A DNA stretch of 40,250 nt, from positions 1 through 40,250 of the forward strand of contig CAKMKD010000127.1 in NCBI GenBank assembly GCA_927439865.1, read 5' to 3'. The stretch's first letter is position 1, and every line of letters starts with the position of its first letter. The DNA is from an uncultured Coriobacteriia bacterium. Lineage in GTDB: Bacteria > Actinomycetota > Coriobacteriia > Anaerosomatales > Anaerosomataceae. Below the pieces are notes generated by a model. That model made no database searches, had not been told where the DNA came from, and worked only from the letters and a program-made list of their open reading frames with translations. Shown piece by piece: positions 7,725 to 15,893 of the stretch. Both the position numbers and the translations under genes were made by a program.

Positions 7725-8581
7725 AGCACCGAGATGATCGCTGCGATGCCGCCGCGCAGTAGCCACCCAAGGGCGATGACAGCGGCCTGACCGCCGAATG
7801 CCCACAGCACCATCGTACGGGCCCGTCGCGGCTCGAGAAGTGCCGAGAGCGCGCCGAGGCACAGCCACGCGGATGCGATGAGCGCCAGGAAGCGCAGGCC
7901 TTCAGTGGCTCCGAGTACGAAGGGGATGAGTGCGCAGGCCCATGCGGCGTAGGTCGCGAGCCCGCTCGCCCGATCGCGCGGAGCGAGCGCGAGGAGGATC
8001 GCGAGCCTCGCGCCAGCCCAGATGATCATGCTGAGCGCCCGCGCAAGCGGAACCCCGAGTGCACCGGCCGTCAGCCATCCAACAGCGATGCCTGCGAGAG
8101 CACCGACGAGAAGCGATCGCACGCCGAGAGCAGCGATGCTGTCGACCGAGGACGCGCTCATGTCGGCCAGGGTCCCGGGTTGCCGCGCGTACACCACGGC
8201 TGCTTCCCCCGTAGCGCGTGCGCGCCTGACGTGTGTGCGCGCGGTGTGTGCGCGAACGGCAAGGGCGCTAGCGACGCGGGCGAGGAAGCGTCGCCATCCG
8301 CCGAACATCCATCCCAGACTGTCGGTGAACTCGCCAGCCGTTCGCTGTGATGTCGCCACAGCAGCCCGGGCAGTCCGCCCGGGTGCGGCAAGCGCCACGT
8401 CGGCGGCCTTGCGAGATGTGTCGCCTACGGCTGATGCACCGCGGCCGATGGCATCGGCTAGCAGTCCGGGTGTCCGCTGTGCCTTCCGAAGGACTGTGGT
8501 CAGCAGCCTGCGCCAGGCCAGGAACCATCCCGAGACGGCCCCGGGACGTGCCACGTTGCCGGCGCCTTCGCGTGCTACCAT
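7721..8581 (-). CDS. Hypothetical membrane protein
   Basis: Basic/Ala-rich N-terminal half, then several hydrophobic segments. ATG 8581 fits better than 8674 because the upstream part would approach the divergent PBP gene. Confidence 0.7.
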   Translation of the reverse strand: MVAREGAGNVARPGAVSGWFLAWRRLLTTVLRKAQRTPGLLADAIGRGASAVGDTSRKAADVALAAPGRTARAAVATSQRTAGEFTDSLGWMFGGWRRFLARVASALAVRAHTARTHVRRARATGEAAVVYARQPGTLADMSASSVDSIAALGVRSLLVGALAGIAVGWLTAGALGVPLARALSMIIWAGARLAILLALAPRDRASGLATYAAWACALIPFVLGATEGLRFLALIASAWLCLGALSALLEPRRARTMVLWAFGGQAAVIALGWLLRGGIAAIISVL

Positions 8582-8697
8582 GTGCGTGAGCTGCTTCCTG
8601 GCATGTCGGCATGTTTCATGCAGACAGCATACCGGAGAAGCTTCTTCGCATGTTCTCGGCTTTACGGACGTCACCGCATGCCGACGCTGGAGGCCGC

Positions 8698-10683
8698 GTG
8701 AATCCGTCCCGCCTTGCCCGCATACTGAAAGTGCTCGCGGGTCTGCTCGCGGGCTTTTGCCTGCTCTTCCTCGGCATCGGGGCGTATCTCTACTACCTGT
8801 CGACGACGCTTCCTGACCTCGGCGTCGACCAGTCAGCCTTCAGGCCGGCCGAGACCTCCGTTGTGTATGCCTCCGATGGCAGTGTGCTGGCCGAGTGGCA
8901 CGGCGAGCAGGACCGGACCGTCATCGCGTTCGACAAGATTCCCGGCAGCATGCGCGACGCCGTCGTTGCGATCGAAGACGAGCGTTTCTACAGTCACACG
9001 GGGGTCGACACCGAGGCGATCATGCGTGCGCTCAAAGTGAACGCCGAGAAGGGTGAGATCCGGCAAGGGGGGAGCACCATCACGCAGCAGGTGGTGAAGC
9101 TGCTCTTCACCGGTGGTGAGCGGACCATGACCCGCAAGATCCGCGAGGCTCTGATGGCGTATCAGCTGGAGACGAAAGCCGACAAAGAGAAGCTCCTCGA
9201 GACGTACCTCAACCTCGTCTACTTCGGCCAGGGGTCATACGGCGTGGAGAGCGCGGCTCACCGTTACTTCGGCAAGACGGCCACAGATCTAACGCTTTCA
9301 GAATCCGCGCTGCTCGCCGGCATCATTCAGTCGCCCACGCGCTTCAGTCCGACGGACAACATAGAGTTCTCGACCGAGCGCCGCAACGTCGTCCTCAAGA
9401 AGATGCTCGAGCTCGGTTACATCACACCGCAAGAGGAGCAGCGTGCCCGGAGCGTCGAGGTAACCCTTGCCCCATCCGCCGAGGAAGCAGCGATCGCGCC
9501 GTACTTCGTCGAGTACGTGAAGCAGGATCTCATCGACGCGCTCGGCTCGGAGCTGGTATTCCAGGGCGGCCTGCGAGTGCAGACGTCGCTCTCTCCGCCG
9601 GTGCAGCGCGCCGCAGAAGAGGCCGCGAGTGCGCTGCTTTCAGCGAAAGGTGACCCGGCGGTGGCGCTGGTGTGCCTCGACCACACAACCGGAGACGTAA
9701 TCGCGATGGTGGGCGGACGCAACTTCGACACCGACAAGTTCAATCTCGCCGTACAGGGGCGGCGCCAGCCCGGCTCGGCATTCAAGCCGTTTGTGCTTGC
9801 GACGGCGCTGAGCCAGGGTGTTCGGCCCACCGATGTCTTCTCTGCAGCGCCGTACTCCGTCGAGGTCACGGACGGGGTGTGGAACGTCCAGAACTACGAG
9901 AACGCGGTGACGAGCGGTTCGATGACGCTGTCGGCCGCCACCAACTGGTCAGTGAACGCCGTTTACGCCCGTCTCATCATGAAGGTCGGTGCCGCGAACG
10001 TCGTGAAGACAGCGGCAGCGATGGGCATCACGACACCGCTCGACCCGAATCCTGCCATCGCGCTTGGCGGTCTCAAGACGGGTGTCTCGCCGCTTGAGAT
10101 GGCGTCTGCCTACGGGACCATCGCCTCGGGTGGTATCCGCCGAAACCCGTCTGGGATCGTGCGTGTCACAAACGGCGCGGGTGAGACGATCTACGCGCCC
10201 GAACGTACCGAAGTACGCGCGATTGACGAGCGCGTTGCCAAGACCACAAGCGCGATGCTCCACGATGTCGTCGAGACCGGGACAGGGCAGGCCGCCCGGA
10301 TCAGCACGTGGTCGGCGGGGAAGACGGGCACCACGCAGGCACACAGGGATGCCTGGTTCGTCGGGTATAGCGCTCGGCTATGTACGGCAGTCTGGGTGGG
10401 TCACCCCGAGGGACAGGTCTCGATGACGAACGTGCACGGCATCAAGGTGACAGGCGGGAGTTACCCCGCGAAGATATGGCAGCGATTCATGCAGAAGGCC
10501 CTGGTGGTGCGCGGTACCGTCGATCCGCCGACCGGTACCGCCGAAGACGCCCCTCCGGGCTCGCAGGTGCGCGTGATCATCTGCACGGATAGCCTTCTGC
10601 TTGCCAATCTGCGCTGCCCGAGCACCATCGAGATGTACCTTGAGTCGGAGCTGGCCAAGCGCAGTACCTGCACGGTGCACTGA
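8698..10683 (+). CDS. Class A penicillin-binding protein (PBP1A family)
   Basis: GT51 motifs 'EDERFYSHTGVD', 'GGSTITQQVVKLLF', 'RKIREALMAYQLE' and transpeptidase 'GSAFKPFVLATAL', 'SVNAVY', 'SAGKTGTT'. GGAGG then GTG 8698, giving N-term MNPSRLARILKVLAGLLAGF. Confidence 0.95.
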   Translation: MNPSRLARILKVLAGLLAGFCLLFLGIGAYLYYLSTTLPDLGVDQSAFRPAETSVVYASDGSVLAEWHGEQDRTVIAFDKIPGSMRDAVVAIEDERFYSHTGVDTEAIMRALKVNAEKGEIRQGGSTITQQVVKLLFTGGERTMTRKIREALMAYQLETKADKEKLLETYLNLVYFGQGSYGVESAAHRYFGKTATDLTLSESALLAGIIQSPTRFSPTDNIEFSTERRNVVLKKMLELGYITPQEEQRARSVEVTLAPSAEEAAIAPYFVEYVKQDLIDALGSELVFQGGLRVQTSLSPPVQRAAEEAASALLSAKGDPAVALVCLDHTTGDVIAMVGGRNFDTDKFNLAVQGRRQPGSAFKPFVLATALSQGVRPTDVFSAAPYSVEVTDGVWNVQNYENAVTSGSMTLSAATNWSVNAVYARLIMKVGAANVVKTAAAMGITTPLDPNPAIALGGLKTGVSPLEMASAYGTIASGGIRRNPSGIVRVTNGAGETIYAPERTEVRAIDERVAKTTSAMLHDVVETGTGQAARISTWSAGKTGTTQAHRDAWFVGYSARLCTAVWVGHPEGQVSMTNVHGIKVTGGSYPAKIWQRFMQKALVVRGTVDPPTGTAEDAPPGSQVRVIICTDSLLLANLRCPSTIEMYLESELAKRSTCTVH

Positions 10684-11024: not shown

Positions 11025-11357
11025 CTAGCAGGCGCTATTGAGCTTCGTCTGGACGGCCCGAAGAATGGCCGGGTACGAGACGGCTCCTTCGTACATGGGC
11101 TCACCGTCGATGACCGTGACCGGGTACACGAGGCCCTGGTCCCTGATCTGCTCGACCAGCTCGGTGCGTTCCGTCACCGTTTCTGCTCTGCTGGTGTCGT
11201 AGTAGAGAATCCGCGCGGCATCGCCGAAGCGGTTCTCCATTTCGGAGCGGATGATCTCGGTGATCTCCTCCGGAGACCACGTGGGACCTCAACCGCCGCT
11301 GTAACAAGTGCTCTCGGCCGGGAAGTCGAACACTTCGACGGTGACGATCTTGTCCAT
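11025..11357 (-). CDS. Putative selenoprotein: small ArsD-like thioredoxin-fold protein with CX4U motif (in-frame TGA at 11289-11291 read as Sec)
   Basis: Track ORFs 11289..11510(-) and 11025..11240(-) are in the same frame, separated by one TGA. Read-through gives MDKIVTVEVFDFPAESTCYSGGUGPTWSPEEITEIIRSEMENRFGDAARILYYDTSRAETVTERTELVEQIRDQGLVYPVTVIDGEPMYEGAVSYPAILRAVQTKLNSAC (110 aa). RBS AAGGGGG precedes ATG 11357. Confidence 0.8.
11260..11280 (-). promoter_or_regulatory. Candidate bacterial SECIS element
   Basis: mRNA after UGA: GGUCCCAC-GUGGUCUCC-GGA-GGAGAUCAC. 9-bp stem (one G-U), apical loop GGA starting 18 nt after UGA with G in the first two loop positions. Confidence 0.7.
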
Positions 11358-11367
11358 GGTGCCCCCT

Positions 11368-11571
11368 TTATCCAAGGTTGACAGCCCCTCCGGGGCAGAC
11401 TCTGGCGCAGATTCCGCATCCCACGCACAACTCTTCTCTAACGGTGTAGCCGTTTGAACCAGGGTACACCCCGCCCGGAAGAGGCACGATCGCATCTCTC
11501 GGGCACACACGTCGAGCTGGACAAGCAGGTGACCTGTCGCAGGCCGCGCTATTGATGCTCACGCTCTGCAC
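11368..11571 (-). CDS. Small 4Fe-4S ferredoxin-like protein with one canonical cluster motif and an atypical first Cys cluster
   Basis: [28 protein letters not shown]...[22 protein letters not shown]. Second motif CX2CX2CX3CP is canonical; first is CX5CX5CP. GTG start with AGGGAG upstream. Stop lies 10 nt from the selenoprotein start. Confidence 0.88.
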
Positions 11572-11610: not shown

Positions 11611-11640
11611 ATTGTATACCCCATGGGGTATCTATTGCAA
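11611..11640 (-). promoter_or_regulatory. Promoter of the ferredoxin/selenoprotein operon with palindromic operator in the spacer
   Basis: Minus strand: TTGCAA (11640-11635), 18 nt, TACAAT (11616-11611). The 16-bp perfect palindrome ATACCCCATGGGGTAT (11616-11631) fills the spacer. Confidence 0.7.
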
Positions 11641-11774
11641 CAGTCTGTGCCCGGAGGATTCCACCCGGTACTCCATATTCATGCCGCATCTGCACGGGCG
11701 AGCACGGGTCGGATACTATGGAACCGAAAGCACCGTCGCTTGGCGAGTGTGCACATGGCGAGACAGGAGTTGCC

Positions 11775-12935
11775 GTGAGTGAGGAAACGAGGCTCGGGGG
11801 AACCGGTCGCAACATGCTGCGGCTTATGCTTGGCGCTGGCCTGATAATCGGTCTGGCGTTCCCCCTGTTCGCCCGGTTGTTCGTGGACCCCAAGAGCACC
11901 GTCGCCTGGTGGCTGTTCTTCTTCTCGTGCATTGGTGCGGGTCTGGGTATGGGCGCGCTCTGTCACCTGGCGGCATTCCGGCTCTCCGAGCAGGTGCTCG
12001 CCCGGGTGCTCGGGGTCGCCGGGCGTTCGTTAGGTGTTGCAGTGCACGATATCAAGGGACTTGATCCTCTAGCAGGTGAATTACAGCGCGTGCTATCGAA
12101 CGCTTCCAGCCTGCTCGATCAGATTCGTGCGGCGAACACGAACATCCGTTCACTTACGGCCGAGGTTCTCGCCGCCACCGAACAGCAGGCATCGGGCGCG
12201 GCGGAGCAGGCAGCAGCGGTGACGCAGACCTCGGCAACGGTCGAGGAACTCGCGCAGACCTCAAGCCAGATCGCCGACAACTCCGAGTCCGTCGTACGCG
12301 TTGCCGAGCGAACGCTTGCGAGTGCCGAGGAGGGCATGGACGCCGTTCACCAGACGAGCGCCGGCATCGAGGACATTCGGCTGAGCACGCAGCAGTCCTC
12401 GGATCGTATCCTTGCCCTTGGCGAGCGGAGCCAGGAAATCGGACGGGTCCTCACGATCATCGACGAGATTGCCGAGCAGACGAAGATTCTGGCGCTGAAC
12501 GCTGCGATCGAAGCAGCGCGAGCCGGGGAGGCGGGCAAGGGCTTCTCGGTCGTCGCCGAGGAGATTCGCAAGCTGGCCGAGTCGGTCACAGAGTCAACAC
12601 AGGAGATCGGCCGCGTGGTGCGCGAGATCCAGGCGTCGACGGCAGCGCTCGTCATGCAGACCGAGAAGGCGGCGAACAAGGTGCAGGAGGGGCTTCAGCT
12701 CGCCTCGCACACCCAGAACGCGCTTGAGCGCATCGTCTCTCAGGTCGAAGAGACCACCGACGCGGCGAAGCAGATCTCTATCGCCACGCAGCAGCAGAGG
12801 ACGGCCTCCGATCAGGTGGTCATTTCGATGAAGGAAGTCGCCACCGTCTCGCAGCAGGCAGCCCAGGCGTCGAGGCAGATATCTGCGGCCATCGTCGAGC
12901 TTAATACGCTCGCCGACAGCATGGTTGTGCGCTGA
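11775..12935 (+). CDS. Methyl-accepting chemotaxis protein
   Basis: Two hydrophobic segments, then an MCP signalling domain with the hairpin tip '[42 protein letters not shown]'. AGGAG precedes GTG 11775; the track's ATG 11718 lacks an RBS. Confidence 0.95.
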
Positions 12936-13402: not shown

Positions 13403-13799
13403 AGGGCTTATCGCTGCGCGTGGCCCTGATATGACCTCGCCGCCGTATTGTCCATTCATGGAGGTTCATTTAGAGTTACCACGGTGGGCGGCTGAGGGGC
13501 TGCCCGTAGCGGCCTGTCGGACTCGGGATGCAAAGAGGGAGAGATGCGCAGGTCAGGGGTTCCCTGGCCGGGTTCAAGGACCGCTTCCGCGCGCTTGTCG
13601 CGCGCCGGTCATCGTGGGAGCAGTCCCACGCTCCAGGAGCGATGCAACGATTTGCTGTATCCATGTCTGGAATCTTGCAGGGGAGTGGGCGCCGACGGCG
13701 AACACCCAAGAAGGGACGTAGAAGCCGTCTCTCGTTCGTGCTGCGCGTCAGGCGCGAATAGGTGCGGCTCTGGGAGTGGGCAGGGAAGGTAGGGAGGCT

Positions 13800-15893
13800 A
13801 TGGCAAAGCTGTCATTGGCAGGGTTCAAAGACCCGGTTCGACGGCCTCGGTACATCATCTGGAGTGGTGCTGTACTTCTCGGATTGGCCGCGTTCATCGT
13901 CGTCGCATTCACTGCGACGTCGACGTACTGGTTCTGCAACTCGCTGTGCCACTCGGTTCAAGACGACGCCATGCGGACGTATGACAGGGGCTCGCACAAC
14001 ATGGTCTCGTGCCTGTCGTGCCATGAGCCGGTCAATGCGGATCCGCTGACGTTCGCGTACTACAAGGCCAAGGCCGGCGTGATCGGTGCGTATGAGTTGT
14101 ACACGAAAACAAACCATACACCGCTCAACGCCGAGAGCAAGCTGGCCCTGAACCCGAAACACATGGGTTCCGAGCAGTGCACGCAGTGCCACTCGGAGAA
14201 CCGCGTGATCACGCCCAGTGCGGGCATCCTGATCGATCATGAGGTTCATGACGAGAAAGAGATCCACTGCACCGTTTGCCACAACCGTGTTGCTCATCCC
14301 GAGCGCGACTACGAGATGATCAACAAGAGTCCGCGTACCGGCGAAATCTCGCCCAAGCACGCGGACTTCATGACGATGACAGCGTGTTTCCGCTGCCATA
14401 CCCTCACTGACGAAGCTCCGCCCAAGGGTATCAAGGCGCCGGGCAAGTGCTCGTCGTGCCACCCCGCCGACTTCAAGCTCAAGCCATCGAACCACGAGGC
14501 CGCCGATTTCTACCCCAAGGGCCACGCGGAGCTCGCGGAGGCTCGTGTCGACCGGGCGACTGGTCTTCCCACCTTCGAGCTTATGGGCGAAGAGGAGTCG
14601 GCAACGCACGCCGCGGAGTTGGCTGAGGAAGAGGGCGCTGCAGAGGGCAAGGCTTCCGATTACGGCGGCTCCTCCGCAAAGCATGACGTCTTCGAGATCT
14701 CGAAGGTCGAGTCCATCAACTACTGCAGCACCTGCCACGTCGTCGACAAGTTCTGCGGCGACTGCCACGGCATGGGCATGCCGCACTCTGAGGAGTTCAA
14801 GACCAAGTCGCACCCAGAGGTCGCCAAGACCAAGATGGACAAGTGCGACCTGTGCCACCAGGTGAAGAAGACGGACTATCTGTTCTGTAACAACTGCCAC
14901 CACGGCAGCGCGTCCAAGTGGACGTACGATCCCAAGGTCAAGTGGGCGACGCAGCACGCGAAGGCGGTGACCACGAACGGTGTGGCCGGTTGCCTCGGGG
15001 CGTGCCATGATCAGAAGTTCTGCGTGGACTGCCACACCAAGACCAAGCCGGTTCCCACGTCCCACAAAGACGCGAAGTGGCTGCGCGACAAGCTGACGGT
15101 GACCAAGTACGGTAGCGCGGCCGCTGAGCCGTCTGGCAAGCATGCGCTTGCCGCCGTTAAGGCCATCGACAGCTGCGAGGTGTGTCACGGTTCAGGTGGC
15201 ACCGGTTCGAAGTTCTGCAAGGGCTGTCACGGCATGGATATGCCGCACCCCGACACATTCAAAAAGAACCACGTGTCAGGAGCTAAGACGCCCAAGCTCT
15301 GCTCGAACTGCCATACGTTCAAGGAGCTCTGCTCGGACTGCCATCACACTGGTGCGAAGAACGGTGTCGCGTGGCAGAAGCAGCACCCGGTTCCGGTCGC
15401 CGCGAGTGGCGCAGCTCCGTGCTTCGAGAAGTGCCACGAGGACAAGCAGTTCTGCGTGAGCTGCCACACGAAGCTCAACGCCCTGCCTAAGTCACACACC
15501 GCCAAGGACTGGACGCGGAACCTCGCGCTCGGGAAGGCCGCTGGCCACAGCACGTCGTTCAAGGCCCAGGCCGATAGCTGTGAGTACTGTCATGGAACGG
15601 GCGGAGCAGAGGCCAAGTTCTGCAAGAGCTGTCACGTCTTGCCGATGCCGCACCCCGGCACGTTCAAGGACACGCACAAGGCCGACTTCGTAGCGAAGAA
15701 GCTGACCGAGAAGTCCTGCCAGAACTGCCACAACCAGTTCTTCTGCGACAACTGTCACCATCCCGGTGCCAGCGCAAGCCAGGCGTGGCGCACGTACCAC
15801 CCGAACCTTGTGAAGAAGGACGGTGCGGAACCGTGCTTCAAGTGCCACAAGCCGACGTCTTGCTCGTACTGTCACGTGCGACTGAACAGGTAG
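13800..15893 (+). CDS. Membrane-anchored multiheme c-type cytochrome with 24 predicted heme-binding motifs
   Basis: N-terminal TM (YIIWSGAVLLGLAAFIVVAFTATSTYW), then 21 CX2CH and 3 CX3CH motifs. NapC/NirT-like N-terminus. Confidence 0.95.
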   Translation: MAKLSLAGFKDPVRRPRYIIWSGAVLLGLAAFIVVAFTATSTYWFCNSLCHSVQDDAMRTYDRGSHNMVSCLSCHEPVNADPLTFAYYKAKAGVIGAYELYTKTNHTPLNAESKLALNPKHMGSEQCTQCHSENRVITPSAGILIDHEVHDEKEIHCTVCHNRVAHPERDYEMINKSPRTGEISPKHADFMTMTACFRCHTLTDEAPPKGIKAPGKCSSCHPADFKLKPSNHEAADFYPKGHAELAEARVDRATGLPTFELMGEEESATHAAELAEEEGAAEGKASDYGGSSAKHDVFEISKVESINYCSTCHVVDKFCGDCHGMGMPHSEEFKTKSHPEVAKTKMDKCDLCHQVKKTDYLFCNNCHHGSASKWTYDPKVKWATQHAKAVTTNGVAGCLGACHDQKFCVDCHTKTKPVPTSHKDAKWLRDKLTVTKYGSAAAEPSGKHALAAVKAIDSCEVCHGSGGTGSKFCKGCHGMDMPHPDTFKKNHVSGAKTPKLCSNCHTFKELCSDCHHTGAKNGVAWQKQHPVPVAASGAAPCFEKCHEDKQFCVSCHTKLNALPKSHTAKDWTRNLALGKAAGHSTSFKAQADSCEYCHGTGGAEAKFCKSCHVLPMPHPGTFKDTHKADFVAKKLTEKSCQNCHNQFFCDNCHHPGASASQAWRTYHPNLVKKDGAEPCFKCHKPTSCSYCHVRLNR

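Follow-up and report, generated by a model that had tools for sequence, protein, structure and literature searches.

Which regulator holds a selenoprotein operon whose promoter carries a perfect 16-bp palindrome, and what signal might release it? The window, a 40,250-nucleotide stretch of DNA from an uncultured Coriobacteriia bacterium, contains such an operon, and a sequence-only reading had proposed that the palindrome is an operator of the CsoR/CstR type. The relatives named below are Actinobacteria or Coriobacteriia metagenome genomes. The order is an uncultured order of Coriobacteriia-like bacteria, from which 63 orthologous selenoprotein operons were compared. The most likely answer, judged from these sequences, is that a CstR-like repressor silences the operon in the absence of thiol or sulfur stress.

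The selenoprotein operon and its promoter

Two genes on the minus strand form the operon: a 4Fe-4S ferredoxin-like protein of 67 aa with a GTG start (11368–11571), kept in 52 of 64 relatives' loci, and the selenoprotein selP (11025–11357), 110 aa long with selenocysteine at codon 23. The in-frame TGA (11289–11291, minus strand) occupies the same codon in all 65 homologues, which come from 65 of the 401 genomes of the class, and the aligned sequences hardly vary near it. A SECIS-like hairpin follows the TGA directly (11253–11288, minus strand); its stem is conserved in relatives, with a folding z-score of only −1.2. The third hallmark of a bacterial selenoprotein, SelB, was found in 24 of 29 relatives tested, among them all four further genomes of the genus. 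A search of the window's own assembly, which is 86.5% complete, did not find it: the hits to SelB proved to be pieces of EF-G and EF-Tu, and what looked like tRNA-Sec was a tRNA-Ser(tga).

The 110-aa protein scores above the cut-off of PF07315 (DUF1462) and below that of ArsD. Its AlphaFold2 model (mean pLDDT 86.9) has a thioredoxin-like fold and matches S. aureus SA0789, a DUF1462 protein (PDB 1xg8), thioredoxins and ArsD, with SA0789 and ArsD among the best or near-best structural matches. It differs from them in the selenocysteine of its C-x4-U-G-P motif, and ArsD is a match in sequence only below threshold.

Divergent from the operon lies an MCP-like chemoreceptor gene (11718–12935, plus strand), a neighbor in 50 of 64 loci and a possible second target of the operator. 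Farther along, at 13776–15893, the window encodes a large multihaem cytochrome with a NapC/NirT-like N-terminus and many CXXCH motifs.

The palindrome, ATACCCCATGGGGTAT (ATACCC-N4-GGGTAT), spans 11616–11631. On the minus strand it lies between a predicted −35 element, TTGCAA (11635–11640), and a predicted −10 element, TACAAT (11612–11617), separated by an 18-nt spacer, which confirms the placement originally proposed. Transcription is predicted to start at about 11605. The window's TATACAAT permits either TACAAT or the overlapping alternative TATACA as the −10 element. In most relatives the −10 is TATAAT or TATACT, beginning inside the last three bases of the palindrome, 16–17 nt past TTGnnn. 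Of 62 promoters, 57 have a TTG at a distance of 7–14 nt from the palindrome, and 46 have TTGC at the −35 position, against a background of 4%. The only Rfam matches were two tRNAs elsewhere; neither a riboswitch nor any other RNA element was found near the palindrome.

Symmetry alone is weak evidence, because perfect 16-bp palindromes, whatever their sequence, should number about 1.5 per window under a first-order Markov model, and three are present. The other two (14690 and 16965) fall within the chance expectation and were set aside. The reality of the palindrome rests instead on conservation of its specific sequence. Within the window, ATACCCCATGGGGTAT has no other match at up to three mismatches (0.03 expected).

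Conservation of the site and its probable regulon

A perfect ATACCC-N4-GGGTAT lies upstream of the selenoprotein gene in 60 of the 63 operons of the order, and a copy with one mismatch in two more. The inner four bases vary among orthologues and the outer bases are constant; the reversed control pattern occurs in none of the order's 69 genomes. Operons without the ferredoxin gene keep the site, 77–181 nt from the selenoprotein gene rather than about 260–320 nt. Thus the site tracks the promoter, since it moves nearer the selenoprotein gene when the intervening gene is lost. On this comparison, the palindrome is a strongly conserved and presumably regulatory site of the selenoprotein operon promoter across the order.

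The window's genome (1.93 Mb) holds exactly four ATACCC-N4/5-GGGTAT sites and no reversed pattern; one further site (C76:10507, three mismatches) was discarded, one of its ATACCC/GGGTAT ends being incomplete. The four sites lie before the selP operon, before a thioredoxin gene (trx), between csoR and a divergent cation-efflux (CDF) gene, and before ccdA, which adjoins an ORF with a heavy-metal-associated (HMA) domain. Here csoR is the single CsoR-family gene (PF02583, DUF156) of the genome, at C21:24090–24320, the coordinates of the regulator itself being C21:24063–24365. A genome lacking such a gene would have spoken against the proposed operator; exactly one was found. The genome scan suggested along with that proposal also bore it out, with one site in the promoter of csoR itself and two more nearby, the fourth being that of the window. 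Across the order, 41 of 43 csoR promoters carry such an autoregulatory site.

These observations agree with a type 2 DUF156 operator. The site is an inverted repeat with TAC and GTA outside two G/C tracts (TAC-X8-GTA), it overlaps the sequence-predicted promoter of the operon, and the genome encodes a DUF156 protein with a site of the same type in its own promoter. The arrangement of −35, palindrome and −10 is common to the selP, trx, csoR and most ccdA promoters. Together with the conservation between −35 and −10 in 62 of 63 orthologous promoters, the regulator gene and its own-promoter site support the CsoR/CstR-like reading, and the palindrome is almost certainly the operator of a CsoR-family repressor.

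The length of the operator varies with the gene: it is 16 bp at each of the 60 perfect selP sites and of the 20 trx sites examined, 17 bp at all 41 csoR sites, and mixed at ccdA. This split may reflect tuning of affinity or a fit to promoter spacing (TTGnnn to TATAAT of about 16 versus 17).

Regulator and site also tend to occur together. All 64 genomes of the order with PF02583 have sites, and two of the five without it (G063 and G089) have none; because the genomes are related, the Fisher p of 0.004 is indicative only. G089 provides the one site-less operon among the 63. It keeps selP and ccdA with a site at neither, and its ccdA still adjoins the HMA ORF. Its value as a clean control, with regulator and site lost together, is weakened by the location of its selP, apart from the ferredoxin and MCP genes. 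No PF02583 gene was detected in the other three (G113, G135 and G137; 73–91% complete), yet each has two to five sites. Two further genomes (G001 and G019; L130 and L131) encode distant selenoprotein homologues of another family, with neither the site nor a CsoR-family gene.

Additional sites in relatives precede genes for rhodanese (one genus, g4, only), SBF/ACR3-like and ArsP_1-like permeases, a SufC-like ABC ATPase and others, and a DUF305 gene adjoins one site. The permeases (L159, L171, L172, L176 and L181) hint at a link to metalloids or sulfur anions. The trx site is shared by a divergent gene whose product is ferrochelatase/CbiX-like and has membrane segments at its N-terminus (L035:3980–5320, minus strand; L175:748–1983, plus strand).

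The regulator and its probable signal

The CstR family senses reactive sulfur through two cysteines, and its classical targets are SQR, persulfide dioxygenase (PDO) and TauE. The sensor positions of the order's regulators read Cys-Ser-Cys in 37 of 43 and Cys-Ala-Cys in six; none of the 43 has a histidine. In contrast, all 19 regulators from other orders of the class have Cys-His-Cys, the copper site. The order's regulators thus carry the x-C-x-C fingerprint of CstR, with cysteine at X and Z and no histidine at Y, and their cysteine spacing is the same as in PDB chain 7mq1, which is entered under the name CsoR and which we take to be a CstR. The regulator of the window's genome shows Cys-Ser-Cys in place of the Cys-His-Cys of copper CsoR; we therefore regard it, like its counterparts in the order, as CstR-like, and it probably senses thiols or sulfur. 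The subgroup models score the regulator far under their curated cut-offs (RicR, an NCBIfam model, 52.4 of 175 bits; FrmR, 40.7 of 133; RcnR, 39.2 of 138). Among the candidate ligands originally listed (Cu(I), Ni/Co, formaldehyde or persulfide), the sensor residues would favor, on sequence grounds, persulfide or another thiol-directed ligand, as in CstR, over the other three.

We propose that the single CstR-like DUF156 repressor of the genome sits on the palindrome between −35 and −10 and would thereby block RNA polymerase at the ferredoxin–selenoprotein promoter. Modification of its two interface cysteines, either through di- or polysulfide bridges that reactive sulfur species form, the mode of CstR, or through persulfidation, as in S. 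coelicolor CsoR, would cause the repressor to leave the DNA and so induce a thiol-redox regulon. The predicted regulon consists of thioredoxin, CcdA (a membrane carrier of thiol electrons), the regulator with the divergent cation-efflux gene, and the ferredoxin with the thioredoxin-fold selenoprotein. The selenoprotein may serve to reduce persulfide, polysulfide or disulfide substrates. Given the thiol-redox character of the regulon, reactive sulfur or another thiol modifier appears the likeliest signal. As a whole, we estimate the probability of this explanation, with promoter occlusion relieved by cysteine modification, at about 0.68.

The principal alternatives keep the operator and the repressor and change the signal. 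Cu(I) or another metal could be bound through the two cysteines, perhaps with another ligand, in which case the regulon would shield thiols from copper. The operator is identical in type to that of the S. lividans copper CsoR, a CDF efflux gene shares the csoR site, the HMA-domain ORF stands beside ccdA, and the DUF305 gene beside one site points the same way. However, the histidine of the copper site is replaced by Ser or Ala in every regulator of the order and kept in every one from the other orders, the RicR model falls far short, and no P-type ATPase motif, including that of the copper ATPases, occurs in the 86 site loci and their neighborhoods, so that a metal signal seems unlikely. A thiophilic metalloid (arsenite, selenite or tellurite) attacking the cysteines as the main signal is less probable again. 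It would suit the ArsD-like, DUF1462-type selenoprotein, the ACR3-like and ArsP_1-like permeases beside sites in relatives, and the modification of S. aureus CstR by selenite and tellurite, as cited in PMC5016687. The matches to ArsD and ACR3, however, lie under the curated cut-offs, no arsenic gene follows any of the four sites in the window's genome, and the sites beside permeases lack order-wide conservation.

It is very improbable that the palindrome is bound by another regulator family, or is a promoter element only, and that its link to the CsoR family is coincidental. The three incomplete genomes with sites and no detected PF02583 gene would fit such a case, but it would leave unexplained the autoregulatory copies in the csoR promoters, the match to experimentally defined CsoR operators, and the fact that G063 and G089 lack both the gene and the sites. 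A functionless chance palindrome, which the expected number per window would allow, is refuted because the site is conserved across the orthologous promoters while its inner bases vary, and because the reversed pattern is absent throughout the order; the probability of such a palindrome is negligible.

Relation to known systems

The CstR-like thiol or sulfur sensor that we favor can be compared with several characterized repressors. The nearest resemblance is to the CsoR of S. coelicolor (ScCsoR, SCO0620), an actinobacterial DUF156 sensor of sulfane sulfur with two cysteines, which represses its own gene and binds the operator ATACC-N6-GGTAT, 16 bp long and with the same ends as the palindrome (PMC7533328). 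It differs in its targets, which form a single cluster encoding a persulfide dioxygenase, a rhodanese and a sulfite transporter (PMC7533328), whereas the predicted targets here are trx, ccdA and the ferredoxin–selenoprotein operon, and the regulator here has an extra C-terminal cysteine. S. aureus CstR and B. licheniformis YrkD are likewise DUF156 proteins with two sensor cysteines and no metal-site histidine that repress genes of sulfur or thiol stress (PMC9918477). Their regulons differ from the present one, in which the examined sites show no SQR, PDO or TauE and a selenoprotein is included; trx and ccdA carry sites near csoR, and a rhodanese gene has a site in g4 only.

The copper CsoR of S. 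lividans has the operator consensus ATATACCCCTNAGGGGTATAT, ATACCC-N5-GGGTAT, TAC-X9-GTA being usual for type 2 (PMC3902906); the csoR (17-bp) and ccdA sites here have this same N5 form with its G-tracts. In M. tuberculosis, the CsoR site overlaps −35 and −10 like the site described here (PMC3902906). The differences lie in the ligands (Cys-His-Cys there, Cys-Ser-Cys here), in the selP and trx sites, which are 1 bp shorter (N4), and in the targets, no copZA having been seen among them. The operator sequence therefore identifies the family and not the ligand, because a sulfane-sulfur sensor and a copper CsoR both match it. T. thermophilus TTHA1953 is also a cysteine-reactive CsoR-family repressor of scattered sulfur genes, including thioredoxin, but its operator, TACNNTACNNNNGTANNGTA, lacks the G-tracts and it controls the Sox pathway (PMC10318464).

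What appears to be new in the present system is a CsoR/CstR-family regulon that would include a selenocysteine-containing thioredoxin-fold protein, together with an operator of gene-dependent length (16 or 17 bp) and a sensor that carries an extra conserved cysteine. A literature search whose coverage left out most subscription journals found no paper joining DUF1462 with selenoproteins, and none of the top-ranked matches within that coverage dealt with a CsoR-controlled selenoprotein operon. If the prediction holds, control by the CsoR/CstR family extends to a selenoprotein. The uncharacterized DUF1462-like selenoprotein family, present order-wide, gains a probable regulator and probable co-regulated partners; these would place it in a physiological setting that can be tested, stress by thiols or reactive sulfur. 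The operator is short, exact and conserved enough for the regulon to be mapped throughout the order's genomes, and the split between 16 bp (selP, trx) and 17 bp (csoR) amounts to a natural experiment on how spacing is read by the repressor.

The extra cysteine lies in the C-terminal tail (KYSSCV/I-K/Q) of 28 of 29 CstR-like proteins, for example L035:6064–6366 (minus strand). Speculatively, a three-cysteine CstR-like sensor could answer mixed reactive sulfur and selenium species and induce a selenocysteine-containing thioredoxin-like protein with the ferredoxin as electron donor, that is, a SelB-dependent branch of reactive-sulfur detoxification; we consider this extended scheme rather doubtful. 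G081 also seemed to have another CsoR-like gene, one that contains an in-frame TGA, but an assembly gap breaks it and no site accompanies it. Three other genomes (G042, G085 and G131) carry two DUF156 domains in one ORF of the CstR-like gene (L143:9315–9908, L144:9731–10336 and L145, about 8299–8814).
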